64,000 bases of DNA, taken from an uncultured Gemmiger sp. (GTDB lineage: Bacteria; Bacillota; Clostridia; Oscillospirales; Ruminococcaceae). Shown piece after piece: positions 43,063-60,516 of this stretch; within the stretch, counting starts at the first letter, position 1; the number at the start of each line of letters is the position of its first letter. Under the pieces are notes generated by a model. The model searched no databases, was not told the origin of the DNA, and was given only the letters and a program-made list of their open reading frames with translations. The DNA lies in assembly GCA_944386225.1 (NCBI GenBank), contig CALXAH010000001.1:44161-108160 (forward strand), given 5' to 3'. The position numbers were made by a program, and so were the translations under genes.

Positions 43063-43983
43063 TCAGTTCCAGTTTTTCAGAAAATCACAGACGGCGGTCA
43101 GGCACTCATCCTCGGTGCACAGGTACTCCCCGGCCCCGCCCAGCAGCGCGGCGTGGCGGGTGCGCAGGTCGTAGTCAAAGGGGGTGCCCGGCAGGTGGTT
43201 GGTAAAGGTTTTGCCGGTAAAGGCCTCGTAGACCCGGGCGGCGCTCAAGGGCGGGGTGGCCAGATGCAGCACCCGCAGATCCGCGTCCAGGGCTGTCCGG
43301 ATATCGCCCCACAGGCGGGCCAGGTCGTAGAACTGGTAGACCGAGCGGCTGTCGGTAAAGGCCAGGGCATTGAAGGACGCGGCGGCAAACCAGGCCCGCA
43401 GCGCGGCCGGGTCGGCCTTGCCGCTCAGCTTGTAAAAGCCGTTGTGGGCGTCCTCGTAGCCGATGCGCACCAGCTCGCTCTCCTCCGCCAGCTGCCGGTA
43501 CTTGTCCGGGCGCAGCAGGGCGGGGGTGATGGTGTGCAGGTCATAGAGGAAATTCTTCTTCAGCCCCTTGCCGTAGAGGGCGGGCAGGCGGACGATCAGG
43601 GCGTCCGGCCAGTCCTCGCGCACCCAGCGTTCCAGCTGCAGGCGGTTGGCGCCGTAGGGGGCCAGCCCCTCGGGGGTGGGCTCGTCGGCCTCGGTTTTGC
43701 CCCGGCTGTCCGCAAAGACGCAGATGGAGGAGATCAGCACTACCTTTTTCGGGGCCAGGCGGCGCAGGTTTTCCCGGGCGGCGGCCATCACCGCCAGGTC
43801 GGCGGCGGGGTCGGCGTTGGCCAGGTACATGGCGGCGGGCACCCCGGCGTAGACCACCAGGCCGTTGTCGCGGCCGAAGCCGTTCTGCACGTCGGTGGAA
43901 TGGTAGGCCGCGTCAAAGGGATGGGCGGCCAGCAGGTTGCCCCCCACAAAACCGGTGCTGCCTACAAGAACGGTATCGGGCAT
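43063..43983 (-). CDS. NAD-dependent epimerase/dehydratase (SDR, RmlD-like)
   Basis: A 306-residue extended SDR. The Rossmann site is VLVGSTGFVGGNL, with a Ser in VLISSICVFA and a YGANRLQLE motif that supplies the Tyr and neighbouring residues (Tyr-x-x-x-Arg rather than Tyr-x-x-x-Lys, which is atypical). RmlD-like enzymes reduce or epimerise nucleotide 4-keto sugars. The ATG at 43983 is chosen since homology begins at MPDTVLVGST; the frame above it is a shadow of the ThrE gene. It is the last gene of the long operon and is followed by a terminator. Substrate unknown. Confidence 0.82.
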   Translation of the reverse strand: MPDTVLVGSTGFVGGNLLAAHPFDAAYHSTDVQNGFGRDNGLVVYAGVPAAMYLANADPAADLAVMAAARENLRRLAPKKVVLISSICVFADSRGKTEADEPTPEGLAPYGANRLQLERWVREDWPDALIVRLPALYGKGLKKNFLYDLHTITPALLRPDKYRQLAEESELVRIGYEDAHNGFYKLSGKADPAALRAWFAAASFNALAFTDSRSVYQFYDLARLWGDIRTALDADLRVLHLATPPLSAARVYEAFTGKTFTNHLPGTPFDYDLRTRHAALLGGAGEYLCTEDECLTAVCDFLKNWN

Positions 43984-43999
43984 GGGAGATTCCTCCTTG

Positions 44000-44443
44000 T
44001 TATTCGGATTTGCGGTGACGGCGGGGCAGCGGAATGCTGAGCACAAAGGCGATGCCCAGCGCCATGGCCACCGCGATCTTGATGGCCTCGGCGCCTTTGT
44101 GCACAAACAGTTCGTTGTTGCCCCGGATAAAGTAATAGGCAGTATAGTAGATGGCCGCGCCGGGCACCAGCGGGAAAATGCCGCTGAACAGGAACACGGT
44201 AATGGGCATCCGCAGCCCGATAGCAAACACCCGGCAGAGGACGGTCAGCGGCAGCACCGCAATCAGGCTGGCGGTGACGGTGCTGGCCCCGGCGGCCACA
44301 CACAGGCAGTAGACCAGCCAGCCCACCCCACCGGTGACCGCGCCGGCCCACCAGGAACGGCGGGGCGCGTGGAACAGGATGGCAAAGGCCCAGGTGCCGC
44401 CCGCGGAGATGAGCAGCTGGCGCAGCATTTCAGGTACGCTCAC
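44000..44443 (-). CDS. ThrE-type exporter, small subunit-like half (DUF3815)
   Basis: A 147-residue membrane protein of the threonine/serine exporter C-terminal class. It has about five helices and the segment FSGIFPLVPGAAIYYTAYYFI, typical of the DUF3815 half of split ThrE systems. Its start overlaps the stop of the larger half by ATGA. Split ThrE pairs are common in Firmicutes and are believed to export threonine or serine. Its place in a surface-sugar operon is odd, and a different export substrate cannot be excluded. Confidence 0.85.
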   Translation of the reverse strand: MSVPEMLRQLLISAGGTWAFAILFHAPRRSWWAGAVTGGVGWLVYCLCVAAGASTVTASLIAVLPLTVLCRVFAIGLRMPITVFLFSGIFPLVPGAAIYYTAYYFIRGNNELFVHKGAEAIKIAVAMALGIAFVLSIPLPRRHRKSE

Positions 44444-45222
44444 GGAAACACCACCCCCAGCAGACTGCCGGCCCCCACCAGCACAAGACCCACGCCGCAG
44501 GCGATGGAGCCCGCAATCAGCAGCGCGTCGATCAGGCGGATGGTGCCGGAGAGATAATCCCCGTTGATAAAGTCCCGGATGGACATGGTCAGGGCAATAC
44601 CGGGTGTCAGGGGCATCAGGCAGCCGATGATGACCTGATCCATCCCCCGGCAGGGCAGGGCCACCGCCAGGGCGGCCACCAGCCCGGCCCCCACCAGTTT
44701 GGTAAAGATCTTATTGAGGCGCAGCCGGGCCGCCCCGAACAGGAACAGCTGCAGCAGCACCCCGATCAGCAGCGCCCAGCCCACGTCGGCCCACACACCG
44801 CCGAACAGGATGGCAAAGCAGGCCGAACCGCCCGCGCAGGCGGCCACCTGACCCCAGGCGGGGGTGGGCGGCAGGGCGGCGATCTCCTCCAGGCGGGTGC
44901 CGGCCTCGGCCAGGGGCACCTTGCCGGCGGCGATCCGGCGGGACAAATCGTTGATCTCGGCCACACGGCCCAGGTGGGTGGTGGCTTCGGGCACGTAGGC
45001 CACCCGGGTGCGCTGGCCCTCCATCGAGCAGTACAGCCCGTTGGTGAGCACGTAGATATTTACATCCTGCCCGCCGTAGCTGCGGGCGATGATGTCCATG
45101 GTCTGCTGCACCCGGAACACCTCGGCCCCGTTTTCCAGCAGCAGCTTACCCGCCCGCATCACCAGGTTCATCAGTTCCTCGCCGGCGGCGGGGGGCGGGG
45201 TTTCCAGCTGCCGGGGGTTCAT
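44440..45222 (-). CDS. ThrE-type exporter, large half (DUF1212)
   Basis: A 260-residue protein of the ThrE N-terminal class. A soluble start carries the conserved AGKLLLENGAEVFRVQQTMDIIARSYG block, and NIYVLTNGLYCSM follows. Five to six membrane helices come next, with MPLTPGIALTMSIRDFINGDYLSG, the most conserved family motif. The ATG at 45222 is the first in-frame start downstream of the neuA-like gene, 11 bases after its stop; the Shine-Dalgarno site is weak, so translation is probably coupled. It works with the DUF3815 half. Confidence 0.87.
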   Translation of the reverse strand: MNPRQLETPPPAAGEELMNLVMRAGKLLLENGAEVFRVQQTMDIIARSYGGQDVNIYVLTNGLYCSMEGQRTRVAYVPEATTHLGRVAEINDLSRRIAAGKVPLAEAGTRLEEIAALPPTPAWGQVAACAGGSACFAILFGGVWADVGWALLIGVLLQLFLFGAARLRLNKIFTKLVGAGLVAALAVALPCRGMDQVIIGCLMPLTPGIALTMSIRDFINGDYLSGTIRLIDALLIAGSIACGVGLVLVGAGSLLGVVFP

Positions 45223-45233
45223 CGGCGCGGCGC

Positions 45234-45998
45234 TCACCGGCGGATGTTCTCCCGCACGGCAGCAAATTCCGGCAGGGTGTCGTACAGATGGCGGGCAATG
45301 ACCTCCATCAGCACGAAATCCTCCTCGCTGTCGATATCCAGCACGCCGGTGTCCTTCATGAGGGAGGCGCCGATCTTGCCGTCCCACAAAATGCCGGTGG
45401 TGTTGTTTGCCAGAAAATCCCGGGCGAACACATAGATGCTGGCGTTCACGTCATAGAACACCGGGGCCTGCTGGCGGGCGGTGTAGGTGGCGTTGTCGAT
45501 GCCCTTTTCCACATGGTCTCCGCAGTCCCGCACCATGTTGAAGCAGGGGTTGCGGCGGCTGTCGGTCACGCTGAACACCAGATCCAGATCCGCCCGGCCC
45601 GCTTTCAGCCGGTAGGCGTTCTCCACGTCCTTCGCGGTGCGCAGGGGGCTGGTGATGTCCAGATCCATGACGAAATCATAGGCTTCGCCCCGGGCCTGCT
45701 CCATCCGGGCCAGGCTGTCCTGAAAGACGGCCATCTTGGGCACTGTGTCCCCGCCCAGGGCCTCGCCCCGGGGCAGGTAGACCACCTCTGGATACTTGTC
45801 CGCCACCAGGCAGGCCAGATCCTCGCTGTCGGTGTTCAGGCAGATGTCCGCCTTGACCTGCGGGTTCGCGGCCAGGAACATCTGGGCCGCGCTCAGGGTA
45901 TAGTACACCAGCGGCAGGCCGCAGAAGGTTTTCAGATTCTTATTCTTGAATCCCTTGCTGCCCGCCCGGCCGCAGATGGTGATGAGAAGCTTTTCCAT
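45234..45998 (-). CDS. CMP-nonulosonate synthetase (LegF/NeuA-like cytidylyltransferase)
   Basis: Activates a nine-carbon sugar acid with CTP to give the CMP sugar. 254 residues with the cytidylyltransferase signature ITICGRAGSKGFKNKNLKTFCGLPLVYYTL (Arg, Gly-Ser-Lys-Gly and Asn-Lys-Asn contacts) and DLDITSPLRTAKDVE. Given LegB, LegC, LegG, LegI and the guanylyltransferase in the same run, CMP-legionaminic acid is a likelier product than CMP-Neu5Ac; this is inference from context. It lies 21 bases after an oxidoreductase gene and 11 bases before ThrE. Confidence 0.88.
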   Translation of the reverse strand: MEKLLITICGRAGSKGFKNKNLKTFCGLPLVYYTLSAAQMFLAANPQVKADICLNTDSEDLACLVADKYPEVVYLPRGEALGGDTVPKMAVFQDSLARMEQARGEAYDFVMDLDITSPLRTAKDVENAYRLKAGRADLDLVFSVTDSRRNPCFNMVRDCGDHVEKGIDNATYTARQQAPVFYDVNASIYVFARDFLANNTTGILWDGKIGASLMKDTGVLDIDSEEDFVLMEVIARHLYDTLPEFAAVRENIRR

Positions 45999-46019
45999 AA
46001 CGATTCCTCCTGAAAGGCC

Positions 46020-46958
46020 TTATGCCTTGCCTAATGTGAGCCGCAGCACCTGCAGCGCGGTGGCCGGGGTGTTGACGCTGGGCCCCGTGCCGGTGAGGGT
46101 ATAGGTGACAAAATAGTCCATCTCCCGCAGATACCGCTCGTTGACCGGTTCCTCGTACCGCTCCACCGTGCCGTCGGCCAGGGTCAGGGTGCCCGCGCCG
46201 AAATCCGCGGTGACGGTGCCGTCCTGGCAGAACAGCTCGATGGCCCGGCGGTAGGTGCGGCCGAAATAGTCCAGATGTACCTCCGCCAGCAGGCTGGGGT
46301 ACCGGGCGATATAGACCGACAGATCGTCCGAATCGATCTCCAGATCCGAATAGGTGCCCCGCAGGTTATAGCTTTCCAGCGGCATGCCGAACAATTCCAC
46401 CAGATAATCCCACTCGTGGATCAGATCGATGGTCACCCCGCCGCCCAGGTCCCGGTGGGCGGAGTAGACGGTGCGGTAATCCACCCCGGGCCGCCAGTCC
46501 GGCAGGTAGGAAGAACAGATCACTCGGGCGGAGTAGGGCCGCAGGCCGGGCAGCTTTTCCTTTAACGCCAGCATGGTGCCGCACCAGCGCATGGGGGCGG
46601 CCACATAGGCTTTCTGGCCCTGGTCGTCGGCCAGGCCCAGGGCGGCCAGATCCGCGTCCGGGTCGTCGAAGATGGGTTTTTCGATAAACAGCGCCTCCGC
46701 CCGGCCCCGCAGCGCGGCCAGGGTATCCCGGTGCATGCTGGTGGGGTTGGTGATGAAGATGGCGTCGTACCGGGGAGGCAGCTGCTCCACGCCGGTGTAC
46801 TGGTTCCGCAGCAGCCGGGCCGCGCCCTCCCGCAGCGGACGGGTGCCGCTGCGCAGCGCGTCGGCGTGCACCGGAATGCCCCGCCGCCGGGCGATCTCAT
46901 GCAGATTGTTCAGATGTCGGGTGCCGATGGAGCCCAGGCCCACAAAAAGCACGTCCAT
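46020..46958 (-). CDS. Gfo/Idh/MocA family oxidoreductase with intact EKP motif
   Basis: A 312-residue NAD(P)-dependent sugar oxidoreductase. The Rossmann motif is FVGLGSIGTRHL, the catalytic lysine lies in FIEKPIF, and a C-terminal alpha/beta domain contains GGGVTIDLIHEWDYL, with a His for substrate binding. Such enzymes act on nucleotide or free sugars at C3 or C4. It is followed 21 bases later by the cytidylyltransferase, so it may shape the nonulosonate or a partner sugar. Substrate unknown. Confidence 0.87.
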   Translation of the reverse strand: MDVLFVGLGSIGTRHLNNLHEIARRRGIPVHADALRSGTRPLREGAARLLRNQYTGVEQLPPRYDAIFITNPTSMHRDTLAALRGRAEALFIEKPIFDDPDADLAALGLADDQGQKAYVAAPMRWCGTMLALKEKLPGLRPYSARVICSSYLPDWRPGVDYRTVYSAHRDLGGGVTIDLIHEWDYLVELFGMPLESYNLRGTYSDLEIDSDDLSVYIARYPSLLAEVHLDYFGRTYRRAIELFCQDGTVTADFGAGTLTLADGTVERYEEPVNERYLREMDYFVTYTLTGTGPSVNTPATALQVLRLTLGKA

Positions 46959-46970
46959 GGTGATCCCTCC

Positions 46971-47948
46971 TCAGGCGTTCTCGATGGCCTCGATCAGGCG
47001 GATGGTCTCCTTGTCCTGTTCAAAGCTGTACCGGGGCTGTTCCGCGCCCGCCAGCACCCCCAGGAAGTTGGCCAGCTCGTCCACGTAGGCGTTCTCCACG
47101 ATGTTGTCGGAGTAGCGGGGATCCTGCTCCACCTGGGCGTAGGTGTTCACCGGCTGTTTCTCGCCGCTTTGCTTGTCGAACTCGTAGAGGGAACGGGGAT
47201 TGCCCTCCCAGAACAGGTGCAGGCCCTCGCCGAAACACTCAAAGTTGCGCACCGCCTTGGGGCTGACCACATCCACCGCCAGCATGCCCTTGGTGCCGTT
47301 CTCGTGGCGCAGGGTGACAAAGACGCTGTCCGGGTAGGCAATCTCCAGATTGCTGATCTTGTCCTTCATGGCGGTGAAGCCGGTCACCGGGCCAAAGGTG
47401 TCCAGCAGCCAGGGCAGGTCGATGCCGAAGATCTCCCGCACGCCGCCGGTGCGCGCGTCCCCCACAAAGAAGTTTTTGTAGTTCTCCCAGGGGTGCCAGT
47501 CGGGCAGGTACTGGCCGATGTGGTAGATATAGTTCACCGGGCCGGCGAACTCCTGCACCCGCTGCTTGATATACCGGGTCTCGCCCCGGTAGAGCATGGT
47601 GCTGGACAGAAACAGCGGCACGCCCTTTTCCTTGGCCTTGCGGATGTTTTCGTCGTAGCCGTCGTCCACCAGGTTCAGCTCGGTAAAGACCGGCAGGCCC
47701 GCCTCCAGCAGCCGGCCGATGAGCCCTGCGTGGCTCAGCGGCGCGGTGCAGACCAGCGCCCCGTCAAAGCCGCCCGCGGCCAGGGCCGCGTCGAGGCTTT
47801 CATAGGCGGTGATGCCCAGAGTCTGGGCTTCCTCCCGGCGGCCGGGGGCGGAATCCACCCCGGCGATCTCTACCTCCGGCACAAGGCCGCGCAGCAGCCG
47901 GGCGCGGCGCTTGCCCATGCTGCCCAGACCCACGATCAACAGTTTCAT
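46971..47948 (-). CDS. Gfo/Idh/MocA family protein lacking the EKP lysine
   Basis: A 325-residue relative of the adjacent gene with a clear Rossmann opening IVGLGSMGKRRARLL and the family C-terminal domain (MLYRGETRYIKQRV, GVREIFGIDLPWLLDTFG). The usual Glu-Lys-Pro catalytic motif is replaced by TELNL after PVF, so the lysine used for hydride-transfer catalysis is absent from its normal place. It may have lost redox activity, use another residue, or act on a different substrate. The start overlaps the stop of the LegG-like gene (ATGA). Confidence 0.82.
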   Translation of the reverse strand: MKLLIVGLGSMGKRRARLLRGLVPEVEIAGVDSAPGRREEAQTLGITAYESLDAALAAGGFDGALVCTAPLSHAGLIGRLLEAGLPVFTELNLVDDGYDENIRKAKEKGVPLFLSSTMLYRGETRYIKQRVQEFAGPVNYIYHIGQYLPDWHPWENYKNFFVGDARTGGVREIFGIDLPWLLDTFGPVTGFTAMKDKISNLEIAYPDSVFVTLRHENGTKGMLAVDVVSPKAVRNFECFGEGLHLFWEGNPRSLYEFDKQSGEKQPVNTYAQVEQDPRYSDNIVENAYVDELANFLGVLAGAEQPRYSFEQDKETIRLIEAIENA

Positions 47949-49138
47949 TTTGGCAACTCCCCTTCATAAAAGGTTTTGGGCGCGCCGAAACCGGGCCGGC
48001 GCACCTCCCGCAGCAGGATCTCCACAATTTTTTCGCTGGTGTTGCCCCCGTTGTAGGGGCTCTTAGCCGCCCGTGCCACCGGCAGAAACGCCGGGCTCAA
48101 AGCCTTGTGCAGGGCGGCTTCGATGGCGGCTTTGTCCGCCGGGCAGCCGATCACGTTTTCGCAGATCGGGCGGCCCTTCTGCCGGTCCCCCACGTTGACG
48201 GTGGGCACCCCGAAGGTGGGGGTTTCCACCACGCCGCTGGAGGAATTGCCCAGCACCACCGCCGCCCCTTTCATGGCGGAGAGGTACCGCACCACCCCCA
48301 GGCTGGTGCGCACCGCGACGGTATCGGGATGGGCGTCGGCCCAGCGGTCCAGCTTTTCGTTGATGACAAGGCCGCCCGCGTCCGCGTTGGCCTTGGTGAC
48401 CAGCCAGTGCAGGCCGGTGGCGGCGCTCACCCCGTCCATGGCGGCCAGCAGCGCGTCGGACTGGGCAGCCGGGTCGGCCCCGCCGGCGGTTTCCGGGTGG
48501 AAGGTGACCAGGCCGTAGGGCCGGGTCAGGTCAAAGCCGATGCTCCGGCTCAGTTCGTCCAGCCCCAGCAGGGTCATGGTGCGGATGTTCTCGTCCCCCA
48601 GGCCCCCCACGTTGAAAACGGCGGCGGGCTGCTCCCCCATCCGGATGACCCGCCGGGCGGATTCGTCGCAGCTGGGGAAATGCAGATGGGCGATCTTGGT
48701 GATGCAGTGGCGGTACCAGTCGTCCGCCGCGCCCAGGGTCACGTCCCCGCCGCTGATGTGGGCCACCGGCACTCCGGCAAAGGCCGCGGCCTGGGCCACG
48801 GCGAAAATTTCGTACCGGTCCCCCAGCACCAGCACGCAGGCCGGGCGGTTTTCCGCGAACCAGCGCACAAAGCCGTGGATGGTACGCTCCACCGCACCCG
48901 CGGTGGCAAGGGGGCCGCTCTCCCCCGGCACAAGGATGGGGATGCGGGCGGCGACGGGCACCCCGTCGGCCTCGATCTCGGCCACGGTGTTGCCGTACTC
49001 CGGCGCCAGATGGGCCCCCGTGACCAGCACCGACAGCTCCGCCTCCGGGCAGGCCATCAGATTTTGTATGACCGGACGCAGCAGGCCGTACTCGGCCCGG
49101 GTTCCGGTGACCACCGCCAGTTTGACCGGCTGGGACAT
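47945..49138 (-). CDS. Hydrolysing NDP-GlcNAc-type 2-epimerase (LegG/NeuC-like)
   Basis: A 397-residue UDP/GDP-sugar 2-epimerase that removes the nucleotide as it inverts C2, yielding the mannosamine-type hexose for the NeuB-type step. Motifs are VVTGTRAEYGLLRPVI, VTGAHLAPEYGNT, VLGDRYEIFA, ISGGDVTLGAADDWYRHCITKIAHLHF and GNSSSGVVETPTFGVPTVNVGDRQKGR. In the presence of a guanylyltransferase and a LegB-type dehydratase, LegG (GDP-sugar, 6-deoxy) fits better than NeuC. The ATG at 49138 is chosen because AGGAGG lies eight bases before it; a GTG at 49162 would place that site inside the gene. Confidence 0.88.
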   Translation of the reverse strand: MSQPVKLAVVTGTRAEYGLLRPVIQNLMACPEAELSVLVTGAHLAPEYGNTVAEIEADGVPVAARIPILVPGESGPLATAGAVERTIHGFVRWFAENRPACVLVLGDRYEIFAVAQAAAFAGVPVAHISGGDVTLGAADDWYRHCITKIAHLHFPSCDESARRVIRMGEQPAAVFNVGGLGDENIRTMTLLGLDELSRSIGFDLTRPYGLVTFHPETAGGADPAAQSDALLAAMDGVSAATGLHWLVTKANADAGGLVINEKLDRWADAHPDTVAVRTSLGVVRYLSAMKGAAVVLGNSSSGVVETPTFGVPTVNVGDRQKGRPICENVIGCPADKAAIEAALHKALSPAFLPVARAAKSPYNGGNTSEKIVEILLREVRRPGFGAPKTFYEGELPK

Positions 49139-49168
49139 ATTGCGTGCCTCCTGTTTTTCCACAATGCG

Positions 49169-49200
49169 CCGCCCGGAGGGTGGAAAACCTTGCCGGGCGG
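49169..49200 (-). other. Intercistronic hairpin between legI- and legG-like genes
   Basis: CCGCCCGG (49169-49176) pairs with CCGGGCGG (49193-49200) in the 69-base gap. It has no T run; it may stabilise mRNA or set relative expression. Confidence 0.5.
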
Positions 49201-49207
49201 CGGCAGT

Positions 49208-50203
49208 TTACAGCTCGATGGGCTCGTCCTCGGCGAAATCCCGTTTGGCGCAAAGGCCCAGCACCTCATGCCAGCGCATGGGGCTCACGCCGGTGCCGGG
49301 GCGCTTGGTGGTCAGGTTTTCCGCCGTGAAGGTCTCGCCCTTTTGGATCGGCCGGGCGGCCACGATGCTCTTGCGGGCCACCGGCTTGTTCCTGGCTTCG
49401 CTGGGGCTTACCGCCTTGCGGCCGGTGCCCAGCGCCGCCTCGGTGCGGCGCACCGCGGCGATCATGGCGGTGAGTTCCGCCACATCCAGGCTGGCTTTCT
49501 GGTCCGGGCCCTCCATGTTTTTATCCAGGGTGAAGTGCTTTTCAATCACGGTGGCCCCCAGCGCGGCGGCGGCCACGTCGCACTCCCAGCCGGGGGTGTG
49601 GTCGGACAGGCCCACCGGCATCCCGAACTGCTCGGCCAGATCCAGCATGGCCAGCAGGTTCGCGTCCTCGTAGGGGGTGGGGTACTCGGTGTTGCAGTGC
49701 AGCAGGGTCACGCCGGGGCAGCCGCCCTCCTCCAGCACGCTCAAGGCGTCCTCGATCTCGGGCAGGGTGCTCATGCCGGTGGACAGGATCACCGGGGTAT
49801 GGGCGGCGGCCACCGCCTCCAGATAGGGCAGGTTGGTGATCTCGCCGCTGGGGATCTTCATGACCGGCAGTTTCAGGCTGGCCAGGAATTCCACGCTGGG
49901 CAGGTCAAAGGCCGCCGACAGGTACTGGATGCCGATGGAATCGCAGTATTCCTTCAGTTCCCGGTGGGCGTCAAAGTCAAAGTGCAGCCGCCGGATCATA
50001 TCCAGCTGGCTTTCGGCGGCGTCGGTGGTGGTTTTCTGGTATTCGGCCTTGGGGGCGAACTTGCTGACCACCAGTTCCGGCACGGCGGTCTGGTACTTGA
50101 CGATATCGGCCCCGGCCTCCTTGGCCGCCCGGGCCATCTCCTTGGCCAGTTCCAGGCTGCCGTTGTGGTTCACGCCCGCCTCGGCGATGATGCAGATGCT
50201 CAT
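49208..50203 (-). CDS. Nonulosonate synthase (LegI/NeuB family)
   Basis: Condenses phosphoenolpyruvate with the six-carbon aminosugar to form a nine-carbon acid. 331 residues: a TIM-barrel NeuB domain (IAEAGVNHNGSLELAKEM, VKYQTAVPEL, PSGEITNLPYLEAVA, LSTGMSTL, LLHCNTEYPTPYEDANL) and a C-terminal SAF antifreeze-like domain (about 270-331, ARKSIVAARPIQKGETFTAENL). By context the product is legionaminic acid or a close analogue. It lies 16 bases after the guanylyltransferase gene. Confidence 0.92.
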   Translation of the reverse strand: MSICIIAEAGVNHNGSLELAKEMARAAKEAGADIVKYQTAVPELVVSKFAPKAEYQKTTTDAAESQLDMIRRLHFDFDAHRELKEYCDSIGIQYLSAAFDLPSVEFLASLKLPVMKIPSGEITNLPYLEAVAAAHTPVILSTGMSTLPEIEDALSVLEEGGCPGVTLLHCNTEYPTPYEDANLLAMLDLAEQFGMPVGLSDHTPGWECDVAAAALGATVIEKHFTLDKNMEGPDQKASLDVAELTAMIAAVRRTEAALGTGRKAVSPSEARNKPVARKSIVAARPIQKGETFTAENLTTKRPGTGVSPMRWHEVLGLCAKRDFAEDEPIEL

Positions 50204-50219
50204 GGCACACTTCCCCTTT

Positions 50220-51266
50220 TTACTGATTTTCCAGCTTGCGGCGCATGGCGTCCAGTTCTTCCATCTGGCCCATGTCCATCCAGCTCTGCTCCCGGATAGG
50301 GTACACCCCTACCCGGTCGCCGGCGGCCCGGTACCGCTCGATGATATCGGTAAAGCCCTGCTTTTTGCCGTCCTCCAGCTCCCGGATGACCCGGGGCTCC
50401 ACCACATACACGCCGGTATTGGTGAGGAAGTTCATCTCCGGCTTTTCCCGCATGGCCCGGATCTCGCCGTTTTCGCCCAGATCCACCACGCCGTAGGGCA
50501 CGGTGAAATGCTTGAAGGCGCAGACCATGGTGATAATGCTTTCGCTCTCCCTGTGGCGGCGGTAGATGTCGCCGAAGTCCGCGTCGATCAGGATGTCGCA
50601 GTTGGAGAGGAAGAACGGCTCGTCCAGCTTGCCTTTGAGCAGGCAGAGCCCGCCGCCGGTGCCCAGCGGCTGGTCCTCGTCGATATACTCCACCTCATAA
50701 TCCTTTTCCAGATCGTTGAAATAGGACTTGATCATGTTCTTTTTGTAGTTGACCACCAGATAGAATTTGCGGCAGCCGAAATCCCGGAACCGGTGGATGA
50801 TATGCTCGATGATGGGCAGTTCCCCCACCGGGATCAGGGGCTTGGGCAGGATCTTGGTGTAGGGGTAGAGCCGGGTGCCCAGCCCCCCGGCCATGATGAC
50901 CACCGGCAGCCCGGCGGGCTTGCGGTTGTCGATATCAAAGCCGCTGGCAAACACGATGTCCAGAATATGGCCCTTTTTGTCCAGCAGCGGCAACGCGTCG
51001 ATGCCCTTTTCCTCCAGCACCGCTTTGGCGCTGCCCCGTTCGGCCACCGGCAGGCTGACGGGCCGGTAGTTGGCCGCGCCGCTGACCGGGCCCTCCAGCG
51101 CCCCCGCGCGCAGGATGTACTTGCGCACGTCCCCGTCGGTGAGCACCGCCTCCAGACGGCCCTCGGGGGCCACGAACAGGATGCGCTGGCCGGTTTCGTC
51201 CAGCTTTTTCATCGCCTCCAGCACGGTGGCGTCGGGCTGGATATACAATTCCTCGATATGCAGCAT
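50220..51266 (-). CDS. CBS-domain nucleotidyltransferase (PtmE/LegX-type glucosamine-1-phosphate guanylyltransferase)
   Basis: A 348-residue two-part enzyme. The first ~115 residues are a CBS pair (QPDATVLEAMKKLDETGQRILFVAPEGRLEAVLTDGDVR), followed by a nucleotidyltransferase domain with VVIMAGGLGTRLYPYTKILPKPLIPVGELPIIEHI, FFLSNCDIL and MREKPEMNFLTNTGVYV. This architecture is that of PtmE, which uses GTP to make GDP-glucosamine for the Campylobacter legionaminic route. The start is the ATG at 51266, with GAGAGGGGG upstream. The presence of this gene argues for the GDP-sugar route. GTP preference is inferred. Confidence 0.88.
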   Translation of the reverse strand: MLHIEELYIQPDATVLEAMKKLDETGQRILFVAPEGRLEAVLTDGDVRKYILRAGALEGPVSGAANYRPVSLPVAERGSAKAVLEEKGIDALPLLDKKGHILDIVFASGFDIDNRKPAGLPVVIMAGGLGTRLYPYTKILPKPLIPVGELPIIEHIIHRFRDFGCRKFYLVVNYKKNMIKSYFNDLEKDYEVEYIDEDQPLGTGGGLCLLKGKLDEPFFLSNCDILIDADFGDIYRRHRESESIITMVCAFKHFTVPYGVVDLGENGEIRAMREKPEMNFLTNTGVYVVEPRVIRELEDGKKQGFTDIIERYRAAGDRVGVYPIREQSWMDMGQMEELDAMRRKLENQ

Positions 51267-53188: not shown

Positions 53189-55167
53189 CGGGGCACCTCC
53201 ATTTCCACCGGCTGCCAGCCGTCCTCGGTCACCCGGTAGAGCAGGGTGTCCTCCGCGCCGGCCAGCCCGTCGGCAAACAGGCTGCCGTAGCTTTGCACAA
53301 AGATCTCGTCCACCGCGTCCACCAGAATGTAGGTGCAGCCGCTCTCCTCCACCAGGGTGCGGAATTCCTCCAGGGTGTAAGGATGGTAGTACAGGTTGCC
53401 GTTGTCCAGCTCGGGCAGGCCGAAGGTACCGCCGCCGCCACCGCCGCCGTCAATGTCGCCGCTGTAGTCCAGGATCAGCGGCAGCAGGTCGCAGCTGTAG
53501 CTGAACCAGCGCAGGCCGTTGTCCCCCTGGCTGACAAAGAAGAGGCGGCTGCCCGGTTCCACCGTTTCGGCCACCGCGTCGGCCTTGCGCTGGATCAGGT
53601 TCTGATCGTCAAACTCCGCCTGGCTGAAGCCCAGCACGCTGTACTGGGGCAGGACGAACTGATTGGTACGCAGCAGCATACCGCCGCCCAGCGCCAGCAC
53701 CAGGGCGCCCGCCGCCAGGCTGCGCCATTTGGGGGCCGGGTGGCTTTGGGCCGCCGCCAGCAGCCAGGCCAGGGCGATCAGGAACAGGCCGATGTAGTAG
53801 GGATAGATATAGCGGTTGTAGTCCACAAGGCCGACACACTGCTCTTCCCGGAAGATAAAGGCGTAGCTAAGCCGCAGCACGAAGTTGTAGCCCACAAAGC
53901 CCGCCAGACCCACCGCCAGCAGCGCGCCGCCCCGGGCCCGCAGCCGGGCGCCCCTGGCCAGCAGGATGCCCGCCAGCAACAGCGCCACGATCAGGCCCAG
54001 CACCACGATGCCCGGCCCCAGCATGGACAGCTCGTCCTTGAAAAAGGCGCTGACCATATCCTGCCCGGCCTGCTCAAAGCGCCAGCGGCGTTCCTCGTAG
54101 TAGGCGGTAACCGGCAGGCCCAGCAGCATCTTAACGCCGTTGATCACCACCGAGGGCAGGCTCTGGCTGGTGACACCCATGCCGCCTTCGGCGGCGTTGA
54201 GGGCGGCCAGACCGGCGATATACCGGCTCCAGGCCAGGTAGGCCGCCAGCGGGGCGGCACAGGTGAGGGCCGAGAAGCCCAGCCGGCGGGGCCAGCCCTT
54301 GCGGAAGGGCCCCGAATCCGGGAAGAAGAACCAGTCGGCGGCGGCCATGCCCGCGGCTACCAGCATCACCGGGAACAGGTTATCCTTGGCCAGGGCGGCA
54401 AAGGCCAGCACCGGCACCACCGGCCAGCGGGGGCCGTCGGCGGCGCGCAGGGCCAGCCACAGGGCCACCGCCCCGCCGAACAGCACACCGGCGGGGATAT
54501 CGCCGTAGCTGTTCATATAGACCTTGCTTAAAAAGATGGTGCGGTTGTAGGTGGTGAAGAACCAGGGCGCGCACCAGCAGGCCACCGCCGCCGGCACCGC
54601 CAGGGCGTATTTTTTCCAGTCCAGCCGCCCCAGCACCGCCGCAAAGCAGGCAAACAGCAGCCAGTCGTACCCCACGTAGACCTTCCAGTAGGCGAACCTG
54701 CCCAGGAACTGGGCAAAGTACCCCATCAGGATCAGGCTGGGGGTCTGGGTGGCCTGCCAGGGGGTGCCGGTCTCGCCCACGGTGTACAGGGCGTCGTTGG
54801 CCTTGGTCAGCTTGGCCGCGGTGGCCCAGAGGGAATACTCGTCAAAATCGGTGGGGATGGGCTGGCGCACGGCAAAGTAGACCGTGACCCCCAGCGCCAT
54901 CACCAGGAACAGCACAAGGCCGGGGGTCAGCAGCTGCCGCCAGCGATCCCGCCGGCGCACCAGCGCCCAGCCGCCCAGACCCCAGCAGGCCAGATACAGC
55001 GTCCAGCCGCCCACGGCCAGCGCCCCGGCCATGCCCCAGGCGGCCAGCCACAGGCCCGCCAGGCTCAGCGCGGTGAGCGGCCCCAGCGCGGCGGGCAGAC
55101 GGGCGTACAGGGTGAGGAAGGCCGTCAGGCCCAGCACGGCCAGCAAAGCCAGCAATACATCCCACAT
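53185..55167 (-). CDS. GT-C-like multi-membrane protein, copy A
   Basis: A 660-residue protein with about 12 to 13 hydrophobic helices. An early outside loop carries the acidic motif PTDFDEYSLWATAAKL, the probable catalytic GT-C site. The C-terminal ~150 residues are soluble, ending in CTYILVDAVDEIFVQSYGSLFADGL. It is a paralogue of the 660-residue product at 55777-57759: matching blocks include the D-E motif, YGDIPAGVLFGGAV, DYNRYIYPY and YILVD. A Gly-rich tract (GGGGGG) falls in the soluble part. Likely a polyprenyl-phosphate-sugar-dependent transferase; substrate unknown. AAGGAG precedes the ATG. Confidence 0.78.
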   Translation of the reverse strand: MWDVLLALLAVLGLTAFLTLYARLPAALGPLTALSLAGLWLAAWGMAGALAVGGWTLYLACWGLGGWALVRRRDRWRQLLTPGLVLFLVMALGVTVYFAVRQPIPTDFDEYSLWATAAKLTKANDALYTVGETGTPWQATQTPSLILMGYFAQFLGRFAYWKVYVGYDWLLFACFAAVLGRLDWKKYALAVPAAVACWCAPWFFTTYNRTIFLSKVYMNSYGDIPAGVLFGGAVALWLALRAADGPRWPVVPVLAFAALAKDNLFPVMLVAAGMAAADWFFFPDSGPFRKGWPRRLGFSALTCAAPLAAYLAWSRYIAGLAALNAAEGGMGVTSQSLPSVVINGVKMLLGLPVTAYYEERRWRFEQAGQDMVSAFFKDELSMLGPGIVVLGLIVALLLAGILLARGARLRARGGALLAVGLAGFVGYNFVLRLSYAFIFREEQCVGLVDYNRYIYPYYIGLFLIALAWLLAAAQSHPAPKWRSLAAGALVLALGGGMLLRTNQFVLPQYSVLGFSQAEFDDQNLIQRKADAVAETVEPGSRLFFVSQGDNGLRWFSYSCDLLPLILDYSGDIDGGGGGGGTFGLPELDNGNLYYHPYTLEEFRTLVEESGCTYILVDAVDEIFVQSYGSLFADGLAGAEDTLLYRVTEDGWQPVEMEVPR

Positions 55168-55180
55168 ACGGTGTGTCTCC

Positions 55181-55780
55181 TTAGCGTCGTTTTTTGTCCA
55201 GCGGGGCGGCCAGTTCGGTCAGTTCCCCCGCCAGGGCGGCCAGCAGAAGCGGCGCCGCCGCCAGAAGCAGCAGCGTGCCCGCGTCCGGAATCAGCCGCTG
55301 CCACACGGGTTCGGCCTGATTAAGGGTCACGGCGGACAGGCAGCTGGTCACGCCGCCCTCGCTGTCCGGATCCAGGCGCAGGCCGGTGATCTCCACCCCG
55401 CCCAGGTCAAACTGCCATACCCCGGGGGCGGTCTGGTCGGCCCAGACCTTCTGCGCCTCGGAGTAGTCGGTCTGCCCCTCGGTGCGGTAGTACAGGGTCA
55501 CCCCGCCGGAGGGCCGGTCCTGGGTCATCTGCACCTGCACTGTGTCCACCCGGGCCGTACCCTCCCAGTACAGCTGGGGGTCGGCGTCGGTGGAGGTAAA
55601 GGTCACCGAACCGGCCGGGGCATCGGCGGCGAGTTCGGCTTCCACCGCGCCCACCAGGGTGAACCCGGCGGGATCAAGGGCGGTGGGCTCCCCTGCCTGC
55701 ACAAATCCCAGCACGGCGGCCGCCAGCCAGAGCACCAGCGCCGCCGCGTAGAAAAAGGCAAGCCAGCGTTTGGTCGTCAT
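55181..55780 (-). CDS. Membrane-anchored beta-domain protein, copy B
   Basis: A 199-residue partner protein built like the product of 52547-53188: N-terminal helix (about 7-28), beta-rich domain with TSTDADPQLYWEG, VTLYYRTEG, AQKVW and ITGLRLDPDSEGG, then a C-terminal helix (about 166-188) and KKRR tail. It overlaps the stop of copy B of the GT-C-like gene (ATGA). Exported orientation of the beta domain is inferred from the basic tail. Function unknown. Confidence 0.75.
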   Translation of the reverse strand: MTTKRWLAFFYAAALVLWLAAAVLGFVQAGEPTALDPAGFTLVGAVEAELAADAPAGSVTFTSTDADPQLYWEGTARVDTVQVQMTQDRPSGGVTLYYRTEGQTDYSEAQKVWADQTAPGVWQFDLGGVEITGLRLDPDSEGGVTSCLSAVTLNQAEPVWQRLIPDAGTLLLLAAAPLLLAALAGELTELAAPLDKKRR

Positions 55781-57759
55781 GCTTCGTCACCTCCCGCCAC
55801 CAGGGTCATACGGGCGCCGCCGTCCTCGATTTTGAACAGCAGCGGGGTGTGGGTGGTACCCAGAGGAATGGGCGCGTCAAACAGGGAGGCAAATTCCTCA
55901 CAGAAATACTCGTCGGTCCAGTCCACCAGAATGTAGTCGTAGTCCGCCTCCTGTAAAAAAGCTACCAGGCCGTTCCGGTTGCAGACCGTTTCAAACTCGT
56001 TGGCATCGGTGAAGTATGGGATCAGGGTCATGCCGGTGGTAGGCCAGCGGTTGTCCCGATGGTCGCCGAAGCTGGTACCGCCGAACCCGTTGGCAATGGT
56101 GGCGTGCAGCTCGTAGCCGTAGTAGTACCAGCGGGACACATCGTCCCCCTGACAGATCAGCAGCACTTCATCGTCCCAGTCCAGATATCCGTTGACGGTG
56201 GCGGCCCGGGCTTTGACCTCCTGCCGGGCGTCATACAGGCTGGAGGGATAGTTCCAGAAGCCGGTGTCGGGCCCGCGCCACAGGCAGACCGCCGCCAGCG
56301 CCGCGGCCGCGCCGCAGATCCCCAGCCGGGCCAGGGCGGCACGGCCCTTTTCCTCCCGGCAGGCCAGCGCCAGCAGGCCCAGGCTGGCCAGGGTCATGCC
56401 GGTATGCACGGCTCCCAGGTAGCGGGCGTAGTCCTTGAGCTGGTAGGCTTCGATGTCCGCAAAGTTGTACACATACAAAAACAGGTGAAACACCCAGAAC
56501 GCGGCCAGCCCGATCCACAGCCCGGCACTGATCCACAGCACCCGGCGGCGGGCAGTGCCCGGCGCGGCGCAGAAGGCCGCGGCCCCCTGGGCCAGCACCG
56601 CCACGGCCATGGCCACCACGCCCGGCCCCAGCAGGCAGACCGGCAGGGTAAAGGGCGCTTTAAGCATAAGCGCCAGGATGGCGGAGAACTTTTCGGTGCG
56701 GCCGATGCCCAGCAGCTGGGCCACCCCGCCCAGCAGCACGGTGGCGTAGCCCACGCTCTCCCCCTCACCGCCCACGGCGTTTTTATCCACGCCGCTGGCC
56801 TGCATCACATAGACGCTCCAGAGCACAAAGGCCCCGGCGATGAGCACCGCCGCCGCCAGCGCCAGCCCGGCGGTGGTGAGCACCCGGCGAAGGCGCACCG
56901 GTTTTTGCCCGAAGGCCCGGGCCAGGGCCATTACCAGCACCGCCACCAGGGCGTAGGCCAGGCCGATGTCCTTGATGAGGGTGAGAAAAACCAGCACAAG
57001 CCCGCACCCGGCCAGCCCGGCGGGAGAATCGCCGGCAGCCAGATACAGGCAGACTGCGCCGCCGAACACAAAGGCCAGCGCCAGATCGCCCATGGCGGAC
57101 TGGTACACCTGGCTCACCGCGCCCGGCTGGTATACGGAGAAGAAGAACGGCAGGCTGACCACGGCGGCAAAGGTGAGCACCACGCTGCGCCAGCCGCGCC
57201 CGGCCAGGCTGGCGGCCAGGGCCGCCACCGCCATGTACAGGGTATCGTAGGCGGCAAACACCGCCCATTCGGCAAAACCGGGGGCGGCAAACTGGATCAG
57301 GTAGCCCAGCAGCATCATGCCGGGCAGACTGCCCCGCCCCGCCAGATAGCCCCGGGCCGCCGGGAACAGCACATCCTGCTCACAGACCATCTTGCAGGCG
57401 CTGCCCCAGAGGGTGAATTCGTCCCACTGGGTAAACAGGGGCTGCCGCACCGCGAACAGAAGCCAGAACGCCAGCGAACCGGCCACAAACAGCCCGAACG
57501 CCGGACTCTGCGCCCGGCGCGCAAAGGCGGGCAGACCGGCCCCCAGCGCGGCAAAGACGGTCAGGCCCGCCATAGCCGCCAGCCACAGCCAGGCGGCGGG
57601 CAGCAGCAGCCCCGCCATGCCGCCCAGATACAGCCAGATCACCGACCCGGCCAGCACCGGCAGCGCCAGCAGGGCGGGGTCTTTATCCAGCAGCTCGGCC
57701 AGTGCCAGGCTGCCGCAGGCCAGGGCCGCCAGCACCAAAAGGCCGCAGAGAAGCGTCAT
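55777..57759 (-). CDS. GT-C-like multi-membrane protein, copy B
   Basis: A 660-residue paralogue of copy A with the same plan: acidic loop motif FTQWDEFTLWGSACKM, MGDLALAFVFGGAV, LKDYARYL and a soluble C-terminal region ending DYDYILVDWTDEYFCEEFASLF. About 12 helices. The ATG at 57759 is used because AAAGGAG stands seven bases before it; a GTG at 57777 is less likely. Probably an extracytoplasmic glycosyltransferase; no closer family name is recognised. Confidence 0.78.
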   Translation of the reverse strand: MTLLCGLLVLAALACGSLALAELLDKDPALLALPVLAGSVIWLYLGGMAGLLLPAAWLWLAAMAGLTVFAALGAGLPAFARRAQSPAFGLFVAGSLAFWLLFAVRQPLFTQWDEFTLWGSACKMVCEQDVLFPAARGYLAGRGSLPGMMLLGYLIQFAAPGFAEWAVFAAYDTLYMAVAALAASLAGRGWRSVVLTFAAVVSLPFFFSVYQPGAVSQVYQSAMGDLALAFVFGGAVCLYLAAGDSPAGLAGCGLVLVFLTLIKDIGLAYALVAVLVMALARAFGQKPVRLRRVLTTAGLALAAAVLIAGAFVLWSVYVMQASGVDKNAVGGEGESVGYATVLLGGVAQLLGIGRTEKFSAILALMLKAPFTLPVCLLGPGVVAMAVAVLAQGAAAFCAAPGTARRRVLWISAGLWIGLAAFWVFHLFLYVYNFADIEAYQLKDYARYLGAVHTGMTLASLGLLALACREEKGRAALARLGICGAAAALAAVCLWRGPDTGFWNYPSSLYDARQEVKARAATVNGYLDWDDEVLLICQGDDVSRWYYYGYELHATIANGFGGTSFGDHRDNRWPTTGMTLIPYFTDANEFETVCNRNGLVAFLQEADYDYILVDWTDEYFCEEFASLFDAPIPLGTTHTPLLFKIEDGGARMTLVAGGDEA

Positions 57760-57804
57760 AGGCGTCTCCTTTCCCACAGAATCCGGGCCGTGCCCGGGAT
57801 TTGC

Positions 57805-59466
57805 TTACAGATAGATGGTATACACCGGCCCGATGAACCAGTGCTGGAACAGCAGCACCGCCCCCAGCACCGCCGTGCCTCCGGCGGTGACCAGGGCCAC
57901 GTTCAGGGCCTTGCCGGTACCGGCCAGTTTGGGCTCCAGCACATGGCTGAGCAGCGCCGCCACCAGCACCAGCAGCATCAGGAACACCGGCAGGAAATAC
58001 CGGGCCTGCAGCCCGATCACCCGCACCATGCCCACGGGGGTATAGGTGATGTACATGGCGGTCATGGCGCCGGCAATGTACACCACGCCGAGGGCCCCCA
58101 GCCCCGCGGCGGGCAGCGGACGCAGGCTGCTTTTTTCATGCACCGACAGCGCCGCGCAGAACAGCAGCACCGCGGGGCACAGGATATTCAGCAGCGGGAT
58201 GGGCAGATCCAGCGACCCGAACACCCCCAGCTGGCCGATGAAGAATTCGTTTTCGTACAGGGTACCCACCAGCACCGCCATATACCGCAGCGGATTGGAC
58301 AGGATGAAAGCCAGCTGGGGCAGCTGCTCCACCCCTTCGATCATCCGCTCGATGGTGCCGTAGTTATGCCGGAAGGCCACCCCGTACCACTCGATGAACC
58401 GGGTGACGAGCAGCGCCCCGGCCAGGGCCGCCAGCGCCACCTGCCATTTTTTCCAGCGGGTTTTCCAGGCACGGCGGGGCAGAATCAGCGGCAGCACCAC
58501 CCACAGAAGGTTCAGATAGGGCTTGGCCACGTTCATGAGCACAAAGGCCGCGAAGAAGGCGTACACATCCTTGTCCCGGATCTCGTCCCGGCAGTAGTAG
58601 CTGGCCACCAGGTAGTAGAAGCCCAGCAGGGTGGCGTCGTAGCTTAAGGACGCGGCCATATACAGGCTCAGCGGCAGCAGCATCACGCCCAGGAACACCG
58701 GCTGATACCGGCGGCAGCCCCGCAGGGCCAGCCAGCACAGCAGGGTATAGCAGGCAAGGTTGGCCAGCCGCCCGGCGTACAGGCAGCCCAGCGCCCCCAG
58801 CCCCACAAGCCGGGCCAGCACCATGCCCAGCGCCTGGGGCACAAAGGGCAGGATCATCAGGCTGATGGGCTCGGTGACCTGTTCTTCCGCGGGCTCGCCG
58901 CTCAGGTACTGGGCAAAGCTGTCCGCCACCGAGAGCACTTCCCCGTCCTCGCCCCACTGTTTCAGCGCATGGCCGGAGGAATCGTAGGGTGCCCCGGCCC
59001 CCTGGGAGTTTTTGCCCCAGCCCACGCTGGTGTGGGCGTTGACCCAGGCGCCGGGAAAGGCCGCCAGCAGCCGGTCCACGTCCTCGGGATAGCCCCGGTC
59101 GGCGTCAAAATCCAGCCGGCCCAGGCTGATGGCATAGCTGCGCAGGTAATGGTCGGTCTCGTCGGGGGCCTGCAGGGGCGGGTTGGCAAAGCAGAACAGC
59201 GCCCCGCACACAAAGATGCAGACGGCGGCCCGCCCGGCGAAGCTGCGGCCCAGCCGCACCGCCAGGAACACTGCCAGATAGAGCGCCCAGGCCACCGTAC
59301 AGGCCAGCAGGGTGAACAGGCCCGCGGCCATCCGGTCGAAGGAGTAGAACACCCGCCAGTAGTACACCAGCCCCACGGCCAGCGCGGTGACCGGCGCAAG
59401 GCCCAGCAGCCACCCGGCCCAGGCGGGCAGCCGGGGCAGGCGGCGGGGAGAAGTTCGTTCGTTCAT
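57805..59466 (-). CDS. DUF2142-like multi-membrane protein
   Basis: A 553-residue membrane protein with about 12 helices. The first outside loop has PPLQAPDETDHYLRSYAISLG, matching the P-x-E-x-x-H-x-R pattern of DUF2142 and related GT-C enzymes. SLSYDATLLGFYYLVASYY and MNVAKPYLNLLWVVLPLIL match the second conserved block of that family. DUF2142 proteins are predicted transferases for surface polysaccharides. It lies 66 bases after legB with an attenuator-like hairpin between. Substrate unknown. Confidence 0.8.
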   Translation of the reverse strand: MNERTSPRRLPRLPAWAGWLLGLAPVTALAVGLVYYWRVFYSFDRMAAGLFTLLACTVAWALYLAVFLAVRLGRSFAGRAAVCIFVCGALFCFANPPLQAPDETDHYLRSYAISLGRLDFDADRGYPEDVDRLLAAFPGAWVNAHTSVGWGKNSQGAGAPYDSSGHALKQWGEDGEVLSVADSFAQYLSGEPAEEQVTEPISLMILPFVPQALGMVLARLVGLGALGCLYAGRLANLACYTLLCWLALRGCRRYQPVFLGVMLLPLSLYMAASLSYDATLLGFYYLVASYYCRDEIRDKDVYAFFAAFVLMNVAKPYLNLLWVVLPLILPRRAWKTRWKKWQVALAALAGALLVTRFIEWYGVAFRHNYGTIERMIEGVEQLPQLAFILSNPLRYMAVLVGTLYENEFFIGQLGVFGSLDLPIPLLNILCPAVLLFCAALSVHEKSSLRPLPAAGLGALGVVYIAGAMTAMYITYTPVGMVRVIGLQARYFLPVFLMLLVLVAALLSHVLEPKLAGTGKALNVALVTAGGTAVLGAVLLFQHWFIGPVYTIYL

Positions 59467-59480
59467 GAAAACCTCGCAAA

Positions 59481-59521
59481 ACAGGCAAAGGCCCGGCGTT
59501 TCCGATGCGGAGAAGCCGGGC
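59481..59521 (-). terminator. Attenuator-like hairpin after legB
   Basis: GCCCGGC (59491-59497) pairs with GCCGGGC (59515-59521), followed on the minus strand by CTTTGCCTGTTTTG. The broken T run suggests partial termination between legB and the downstream 15 genes. Confidence 0.55.
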
Positions 59522-59532
59522 CCGGCCAGAAT

Positions 59533-60516
59533 TTACAGGCTGTACACCCCGGGCTTGTAGCTGTCCATATGGGTGCGCAGGAATTCGATGGTTTCCGCCA
59601 GGCCCTGTTCAAAGGTGTATTTCGGGGCCCAGCCGGTCATGGCGCGCAGCTTGTCCGCGCAGCCCAGCAGGCGGTTGACCTCGCTCTTTTCCGGGCGCAG
59701 GCGCTGCTCGTCGCAGACGATCTTGGCCTCGGGGTTGATCTGGCGGATCAGCTCATTGGCCAGATCACCGATGGAATGCTCCTGCCCGGTGGCGATGTTG
59801 ACCTCCTGACCCACGGCGGCGGTGCAGTCCGCCAGGGCCATGAAGCCGGCGGCGGTGTCCTTGACGTAGTTGAAGTCCCGGGTGGGGGTCAGGCTGCCCA
59901 GCTTGATCTCGGTCTGGCCGTTCAGCAGCTGGGTAATGATGGTGGGGATGACGGCCCGGCCGCTCTGGCGGGGGCCGTAGGTGTTGAAGGGCCGCACGAT
60001 GGTGACCGGCAGGTCAAAGCTGCGGTAGAAGCTCTCGGCCAGACGGTCGGCGCCGATCTTGGTGGCGGAGTAGGGGCTCTGGCCCTGGAAGGGGTGTTTT
60101 TCATCGATGGGCACGTACTGGGCGGTGCCGTACACCTCGCTGGTGCTGGTGACCAGCAGGCGGGAGGTGCCCACCTGACGGGCTGCGTTCAGCACGTTCA
60201 GGGTGCCCTTGATGTTGGTGTCCACATAGCTGTCCGGGCTGTGGTAGCTGAAGGGAATGGCGATCAGCGCCGCCAGATGGTAGACGATCTCCTGGCCTTC
60301 CATGGCGGTGCGCACCCCGTTGGGGTCGCGGATGTCGCCCATAAAGACCTCGATCTCGTTTTTGACGGCCGGTTCCAGGCTGTCCAGCCAGCCCCAGCTG
60401 CCGAAAGAGTTATAGTAGCAGAACGCCTTGACACGCTCGCCTTTTTTGACCAGTTCCTCGGTGAGGTGACTGCCGATAAAGCCGTCCGCGCCGGCGACCA
60501 TGACGGTATGCGCCAT
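59533..60516 (-). CDS. LegB-like NDP-sugar 4,6-dehydratase
   Basis: A 327-residue extended SDR that forms a 4-keto-6-deoxy sugar from an NDP-N-acetylhexosamine. Motifs are VMVAGADGFIGSHL, the active-site TSTSEVYGTAQ and YSATKIGADRLAESFYRSF (Tyr-x-x-x-Lys), RPFNTYGPRQSGRAVIP and RDFNYVKDTAAGF. The GFGSWGWLD-like segment NSFGSWGWLDSL is typical of LegB/PglF-adjacent dehydratases acting on GDP- or UDP-GlcNAc. The start is the ATG at 60516, nine bases after AAAGG; an ATG at 60525 would lie directly on that site. First gene of the long operon. Confidence 0.9.
   Translation of the reverse strand: MAHTVMVAGADGFIGSHLTEELVKKGERVKAFCYYNSFGSWGWLDSLEPAVKNEIEVFMGDIRDPNGVRTAMEGQEIVYHLAALIAIPFSYHSPDSYVDTNIKGTLNVLNAARQVGTSRLLVTSTSEVYGTAQYVPIDEKHPFQGQSPYSATKIGADRLAESFYRSFDLPVTIVRPFNTYGPRQSGRAVIPTIITQLLNGQTEIKLGSLTPTRDFNYVKDTAAGFMALADCTAAVGQEVNIATGQEHSIGDLANELIRQINPEAKIVCDEQRLRPEKSEVNRLLGCADKLRAMTGWAPKYTFEQGLAETIEFLRTHMDSYKPGVYSL

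Follow-up and report, generated by a model that had tools for sequence, protein, structure and literature searches.

Which product is made by a block of 16 genes that joins a nonulosonate pathway to a series of membrane proteins? The block lies in a 64,000-nucleotide stretch of DNA from an uncultured Gemmiger sp. (GCA_944386225.1, contig CALXAH010000001.1, positions 44,161 to 108,160; hereafter the window), where 16 open reading frames, all on the minus strand, run from 60516 to 43063 and likely form one operon, as judged from their layout. With a probability of about 0.6, this operon and a second locus together make a surface glycan that contains a legionaminic-type nonulosonate. The system would be a variant of the known legionaminic pathway, with two unnamed protein families, here called M (about 660 amino acids) and S (about 200 amino acids). 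The identities, order and co-occurrence of the genes come from sequence, and from these we infer every reaction, the link between the two loci and the role of M and S.

The nonulosonate pathway

The genes assigned to the synthesis of the sugar, which would be activated with cytidine monophosphate (CMP), are the following.

59533-60516, minus strand: LegB, NAD-dependent 4,6-dehydratase (TIGR04180, 501.3 bits, cut-off 475)
51302-52465, minus strand: LegC aminotransferase (TIGR04181, 465.3 bits, cut-off 420)
50220-51266, minus strand: PtmE, a CBS domain plus a nucleotidyltransferase (PF00571 and PF00483)
49208-50203, minus strand: LegI, NeuB-family synthase (PF03102 plus SAF; TIGR03569, 460.6 bits, cut-off 399.65)
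47945-49162, minus strand: LegG, hydrolysing 2-epimerase (PDB 5zlr, 266.6 bits)
46971-47948, minus strand: OxA, Gfo/Idh/MocA oxidoreductase (PF01408), PtmF-like by size and place only
46020-46958, minus strand: OxB, second Gfo/Idh/MocA oxidoreductase (PF01408)
45234-45998, minus strand: LegF, CMP-nonulosonate synthetase (PF02348; PDB 6ifd, E 1.4e-15, 60.5 bits)

The initial annotation had named LegB, LegC, LegG, LegI, LegF and PtmE as a complete legionaminic set. Homologues of all six are present, LegB and LegC passing their NCBIfam cut-offs and the others being recognised by family or domain matches, and the operon pathway very likely makes a legionaminic-type sugar. LegG, which matches the GDP/UDP-diacetylbacillosamine 2-epimerase 5zlr far better than the UDP-GlcNAc 2-epimerase/ManNAc kinase 4zht (121.7 bits), and the architecture of PtmE point the same way. 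PtmE, whose start is likely at 51266, as Gemmiger relatives can be aligned across 348 amino acids, would make a sugar linked to guanosine diphosphate (GDP), and the precursors of the pathway are probably GDP-linked. A grouping with Leg rather than Neu enzymes had also been anticipated, and LegG favours it. For LegI, which passes the NeuB_NnaB model (TIGR03569), stays below the cut-off of the PseI model and matches PDB entries of PseI and SiaC with 191.8 and 181.6 bits, and for LegF, which reaches 65.7 of the 205.7 bits of the PseF model, the scores leave the choice among Leg, Neu and Pse undecided. The word complete did not survive, as neither the 4-N-acetyltransferase LegH nor any enzyme that would use the CMP-sugar, the latter searched for with PF01973 and TIGR04396, could be recognised among the 16 genes; a PtmA-like gene was likewise not recognised among them.

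The second locus and its association with M

A putative glycosyltransferase matching TIGR04396 (267.9 bits, cut-off 125) is encoded on another contig of the same genome, C3, and would fit the CMP-sugar transfer step. There, genes for an MBOAT acyltransferase, a small SGNH-like protein, the TIGR04396 protein and an unclassified protein stand in a row, the last being 79% identical to its counterpart in genome G022 (350 residues). The labels SGNH and, for the unclassified protein, flippase were assigned by eye; in distant loci (L129), the protein adjoining TIGR04396 is of the Polysacc_synt family (Wzx-type). A PDB search with the TIGR04396 protein gave chance matches only. Three divergent loci encode a related protein (67-69% identical), and the two that were scanned both pass TIGR04396.

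The presence of the TIGR04396 protein follows that of M. Of 61 relatives, 12 hold M, and these same 12, with no others, have TIGR04396 over its cut-off. In a set of 297 family genomes, which includes these 12, M is present in 52 genomes of 24 genera. All but one of these 52 have TIGR04396 over cut-off (51/52), the exception holding a 92-bit fragment, compared with 5 of the 245 without M (Fisher p 2e-50, uncorrected for kinship). The LegB model matches 293 of the 297 genomes at E<=0.001, so only counts over the cut-off are informative; these are 48/52 with M and 6/245 without it, and in the remaining four M genomes the LegB match is lower, partial or split.

The neighbourhoods of M in named genomes also bring the two halves together. 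A motif of M located 50 loci, and tblastn places LegB on the plus strand in 35 of them. DUF2142 follows LegB in 33 of these 35, and an MBOAT gene lies upstream of and divergent from LegB in 20. Of these 20 loci, 18 also have the SGNH-like gene, 16 TIGR04396 and 7 the unclassified protein. Among the other 15, five have less than 1 kb of upstream sequence, and two (L128, L129) have TIGR04396 beside LegF instead. In Subdoligranulum variabile OY725868, for example, TIGR04396, SGNH-like and MBOAT genes diverge from LegB-DUF2142-M-S-LegC-PtmE-LegI-LegG-OxA-OxB-LegF. The record carrying both halves (OY725868.1, 134934-168082; L160) is labelled a 305-kb circular plasmid. In the Gemmiger of the window and in genomes G001-G003, the two halves lie on separate contigs. 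The order LegB-DUF2142-M-S-M-S-LegC-PtmE-LegI-LegG-OxA-OxB-LegF is repeated in other genera, which argues that the arrangement is not due to chance, and OxB follows OxA in many related loci.

A candidate for the missing 4-N-acetyltransferase

The best candidate for a LegH-like enzyme, judged by domain matches, is a fusion protein that combines a NeuD/PglD-type domain with an N-acetylhexosamine 1-kinase (NahK) and is encoded on another contig of the same genome (G000:C5:134192-135829). It is the best of seven NeuD-model matches in this genome (131.1 and 134.2 bits, below the cut-off of 160.8), and it matches pilin-glycosylation and PglD acetyltransferases with E 1.1e-27 and 2.6e-18. The full fusion occurs in 7 of the 12 M-holding genomes and in none of the 49 others, and a further M-holding genome, G014, encodes a NeuD-like protein (49%) as a separate gene. 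LegH of Plesiomonas is listed in the literature as NeuD-similar. A GNAT gene that follows LegF in some loci was set aside as LegH, since the window has no GNAT gene and genomes G020 and G033 hold one in addition to the fusion. A second NahK-like kinase gene (L148, 5277-6389, contig C3), 58% identical to the fused kinase, is separated by about 5.5 kb from those for MBOAT and TIGR04396.

The membrane module

Between LegB and LegC, the operon encodes five further proteins.

57805-59466, minus strand: DUF2142 membrane protein, putative GT-C (PF09913, E 1.1e-39, 136.8 bits, cut-off 30.1)
55777-57777, minus strand: M1 (M666), polytopic membrane protein, 28% identical to M660 (E 4.6e-38)
55181-55780, minus strand: S1 (S199), partner of M1, 34% identical to S213 (E 6.5e-14)
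53185-55167, minus strand: M2 (M660), polytopic membrane protein, AlphaFold2 mean predicted local distance difference test (pLDDT) 92.5
52547-53188, minus strand: S2 (S213), two long helices around a beta domain, pLDDT 94

M and S thus constitute a two-gene unit that is duplicated in tandem. The M and S proteins of the window match no Pfam or NCBIfam family. When 66 M and 51 S proteins were searched against Pfam, only a few members of each had matches, which were scattered and at best reached E 0.0088 (M) and 0.0058 (S). A PDB sequence search with a 15-row M alignment returned a single chance match (E 0.93), a PHROGs search with five proteins found nothing, and M has no match in phage records. 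In M660, Asp109 is invariant and Glu110 is conserved in at least 90% of 66 sequences. Using Foldseek, the GT-C enzymes AftA, ALG12 and AftB rank 1, 2 and 4 among the matches of the M660 model (E 1.7e-3, 2.3e-3 and 0.04), weakly suggesting a GT-C-like fold for the M proteins. For the S213 model, the top match is CBM86 (6sgf, E 1.5e-6), and in the predicted structure two membrane helices flank this CBM-like domain. In a tree of 94 M proteins, built with a quick method and leaving 15 forks open, M1 and M2 fall into separate groups common to several genera (Shimodaira-Hasegawa approximate likelihood ratio test, SH-aLRT, 95-100 on starred forks), so both copies look old.

The initial annotation had proposed that GT-C-like proteins of the operon add or build the sugar. 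The weak fold resemblance of M speaks for the first part of that claim, while direct addition is too simple, since GT-C enzymes use lipid-linked donors and the CMP-sugar step is a fit for the TIGR04396 protein of the second locus. The M and S proteins most likely act outside the membrane, by analogy with the predicted lactococcal polymerase and co-polymerase WpsI and WpsH. It could tentatively be speculated that they represent a GT-C glycan synthase of a new, extracytoplasmic class, in which a partner subunit binds sugar, handling lipid-linked nonulosonate or nonulosonate-ended repeats, with each pair setting one linkage; on present evidence this is doubtful.

The proposed system would then work as follows. 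In the cytosol, PtmE would produce GDP-linked N-acetylglucosamine (GlcNAc), which LegB, LegC, the unlinked LegH-like NeuD-NahK, LegG, LegI and LegF would convert into the CMP-activated sugar. The TIGR04396 protein may transfer the sugar to a lipid-linked acceptor, and a flippase, perhaps the unclassified protein adjoining TIGR04396, would move the lipid-linked sugar across the membrane. On the outer face, DUF2142 and the two pairs of M and S may polymerise or attach the sugar, while the MBOAT enzyme would O-acylate the glycan.

Alternative explanations

Several observations weigh against a two-locus legionaminic-type system. The use of a CMP-sugar by the TIGR04396 protein is itself inferred, Foldseek gives M660 no match under E 0.001, and the proteins labelled flippase and SGNH have no Pfam match above chance and no NCBIfam match. 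Five genomes with TIGR04396 and six with LegB lack M, and kinship is uncorrected in this co-occurrence. No Leg-pathway gene is in view at 11 of the 50 M loci, some on short contigs (L102, L103, L104, L108, L115, L122, L126, L127, L130, L131, L134), and five loci with DUF2142 and M show no S (L127-L130, L132). A fusion-like NeuD domain is lacking in 4 of the 12 M genomes (G002, G016, G019, G026; completeness is 75% for G002 and 86% for G026). Conversely, some genomes that lack M do have NeuD-domain matches, of a weaker kind (about 27-37%), and the genome of the window holds six further weaker NeuD matches.

The alternatives overlap, and their probabilities do not sum to one. A serious contender, at slightly less than even odds, is that M and S are side-chain or ligase GT-C enzymes using polyprenyl-phosphate hexoses, the nonulosonate being one residue of a glycan that other proteins polymerise. 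The number and order of M copies, one to three per locus and interleaved with LegC and PtmE, vary as would be expected for swappable linkage-specific enzymes, and the 11 M loci without Leg genes, several beside YfhO, fit the same picture. Yet the over-cut-off presence of TIGR04396 in 51/52 and LegB in 48/52 M genomes argues against a hexose-type role, as does the most divergent M branch, which includes LegI-DUF2142-M clusters (L129, L132). Quite possible, if somewhat less so, is that the sugar is not legionaminic acid itself and instead another member of the series, i.e., an 8-epimer, a form with other N-acyl groups or a product altered by OxA and OxB. The absence of LegH from the line, the two Gfo/Idh oxidoreductases and the lack of a recognised PtmA-like gene among the 16 would agree with this, whereas OxA fits PtmF by size and place, so that there is no strict need to go beyond the known set; PtmF is described as a 326-amino-acid oxidoreductase in the available part of PMC4481668.

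It is unlikely that the glycan decorates surface proteins through general O-glycosylation, as in Tannerella, with M or DUF2142 as the protein transferase. The GT-C fold is common to protein O-mannosyltransferases, and the TIGR04396 protein matches the BFO_1060 glycosyltransferase model with 75.5 of 200 bits. Tannerella GtfS adds a pseudaminic residue in the protein O-glycan according to the available text of PMC6120980; the tag BFO_1060, a putative equivalent of GtfS, occurs in none of the papers listed for it. However, passages of PMC9746298 and PMC12599335 place DUF2142 proteins in loci for wall polysaccharides, and the MBOAT protein resembles DltB (140.5 of 375 bits). Flagellin glycosylation is also unlikely. 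PF01973 (named MptE-like), which we take to be the model finding bacterial Maf, has no match in the genome of the window, and its control matches are in 4 archaea only. Finally, synthesis of N-acetylneuraminic acid (Neu5Ac) is highly improbable: LegI and LegG do pass the NeuB_NnaB and NeuC_NnaA models, but the established pathway needs no LegB, LegC or PtmE, yet LegB and LegC are in the operon, and LegG is closest to a diacetylbacillosamine epimerase.

Operon layout and neighbouring genes

The remaining genes and the control signals of the operon are listed below.

60593-60621, minus strand: promoter TTGAAG-17-TATACT, hexamers kept in relatives
59467-59532, minus strand: hairpin in the 66-base gap between LegB and DUF2142, candidate attenuator (z -3.4)
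44440-45222, minus strand: ThrE N-terminal half, ThrE1 (PF06738, E 5.9e-61)
44000-44443, minus strand: ThrE C-terminal half, ThrE2 (NF047720 positions 310-447, below cut-off)
43063-43983, minus strand: Epi, NAD-dependent epimerase/RmlD-like protein (PF04321/PF01370)
43025-43060, minus strand: intrinsic terminator (fold z -5.25)

The initial annotation had described a single minus-strand run of 16 closely spaced genes between a promoter and a strong terminator, and this layout is borne out. The gaps range from -4 (four overlaps) to +81 bases, and the terminator folds as listed. The promoter motif scores 9/12 and would alone be at chance level (4 sites found, 2.5 expected), yet its hexamers and spacing are conserved in 3/3 Gemmiger relatives, with flanks that partly differ in two; the third relative is identical throughout the region, leaving two informative comparisons. 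The site lies downstream of a terminator-like hairpin (z -6.2) behind a TetR gene. The hairpin between LegB and DUF2142, with its stem kept and its loop altered in two relatives, is possibly an attenuator and could lower read-through, so a single operon is likely, short of shown. The nearest named relative, Gemmiger sp. An120, is 97% identical over M660.

The ThrE exporter is divided into two overlapping genes (44000-45222), which follow LegF in several but not all loci and are probably mere neighbours outside the sugar pathway. Epi is seen in Gemmiger loci only, most other loci being cut or different at that position. Just upstream on the same strand (60697-63353) are a TetR regulator and a flavocytochrome c-type FAD/FMN protein, and right after the terminator, also on the same strand (40170-42949), lie TIM-barrel isomerase-like, GT2 and DAO-type genes. 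In other loci (L102, L103, L104, L108, L115), including Gemmiger formicilis An812, M and S stand beside a YfhO-like gene, and Leg genes are not seen there; the YfhO family assignment was shown for L101 and L124, and the YfhO protein matches the PgfM1 and PgfM2 models far below their cut-offs. The genome of the window has a second nonulosonate-like locus (L159, G000:C2, 4606-9704), in which a NeuB-family synthase adjoins a PseF-PseG-like fusion protein, neither reaching its cut-off, with aminotransferase- and dehydratase-like genes; it probably makes a different sugar.

Significance

If the speculative reading of M and S as a new synthase class is true, they would form, with the divergent MBOAT and TIGR04396 module, an undescribed nonulosonate coat system in gut bacteria of Gemmiger, Fournierella, Faecalibacterium-like, Anaerofilum and Subdoligranulum lineages; among the titles listed on nonulosonate or sialic sugars in these genera or in gut Clostridia, none concerns the system, and the passages seen do not describe it. 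Such bacteria are common in the gut, and little is known of the glycans on their surface; host lectins and antibodies can encounter legionaminic-type sugars as resembling sialic acids. NeuD-NahK, the TIGR04396 protein and MBOAT are candidates for the missing steps and, together with the unnamed two-gene membrane module, are testable in named species, e.g., Subdoligranulum variabile and Fournierella massiliensis.

Comparison with known systems

The GDP-linked CMP-legionaminic acid pathway of Campylobacter was reportedly described by Schoenhofen in 2009. As outlined in passages of PMC4481668, PMC13317340 and PMC7439481, it resembles the operon in LegB, LegC, LegG, LegI, LegF, PtmE and a PtmF-sized oxidoreductase; unlike it, the operon is without LegH or a recognised PtmA, has a second Gfo/Idh protein and is joined to DUF2142, M and S. 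A Leg cluster on Sulfitobacter plasmid NZ_CP083567 encodes proteins 57% (LegB), 46% (LegI), 40% (LegC), 37% (LegG), 36% (PtmE) and 31% (LegF) identical to those of the operon, but has a LegH-like acetyltransferase in line and, across the 19 kb viewed, lacks any annotated Gfo/Idh gene.

For the membrane module, the closest parallel is the lactococcal pair of WpsI, a DUF2142 polymerase, and its co-polymerase WpsH, both predictions in the available text of PMC12599335. Like this pair, compared by description only, M and S combine a polytopic glycosyltransferase-like protein with a small one in which two membrane-directed segments enclose the outer part, whereas M has no Pfam match, is not DUF2142 and occurs in duplicated pairs. 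Finally, the sps legionaminic pathway of Bacillus subtilis, as described in part of PMC7439481, differs from the operon in its UDP-linked precursors and its place in the spore crust, yet it puts legionaminic acid on the surface of a Bacillota, as is proposed here for Gemmiger.

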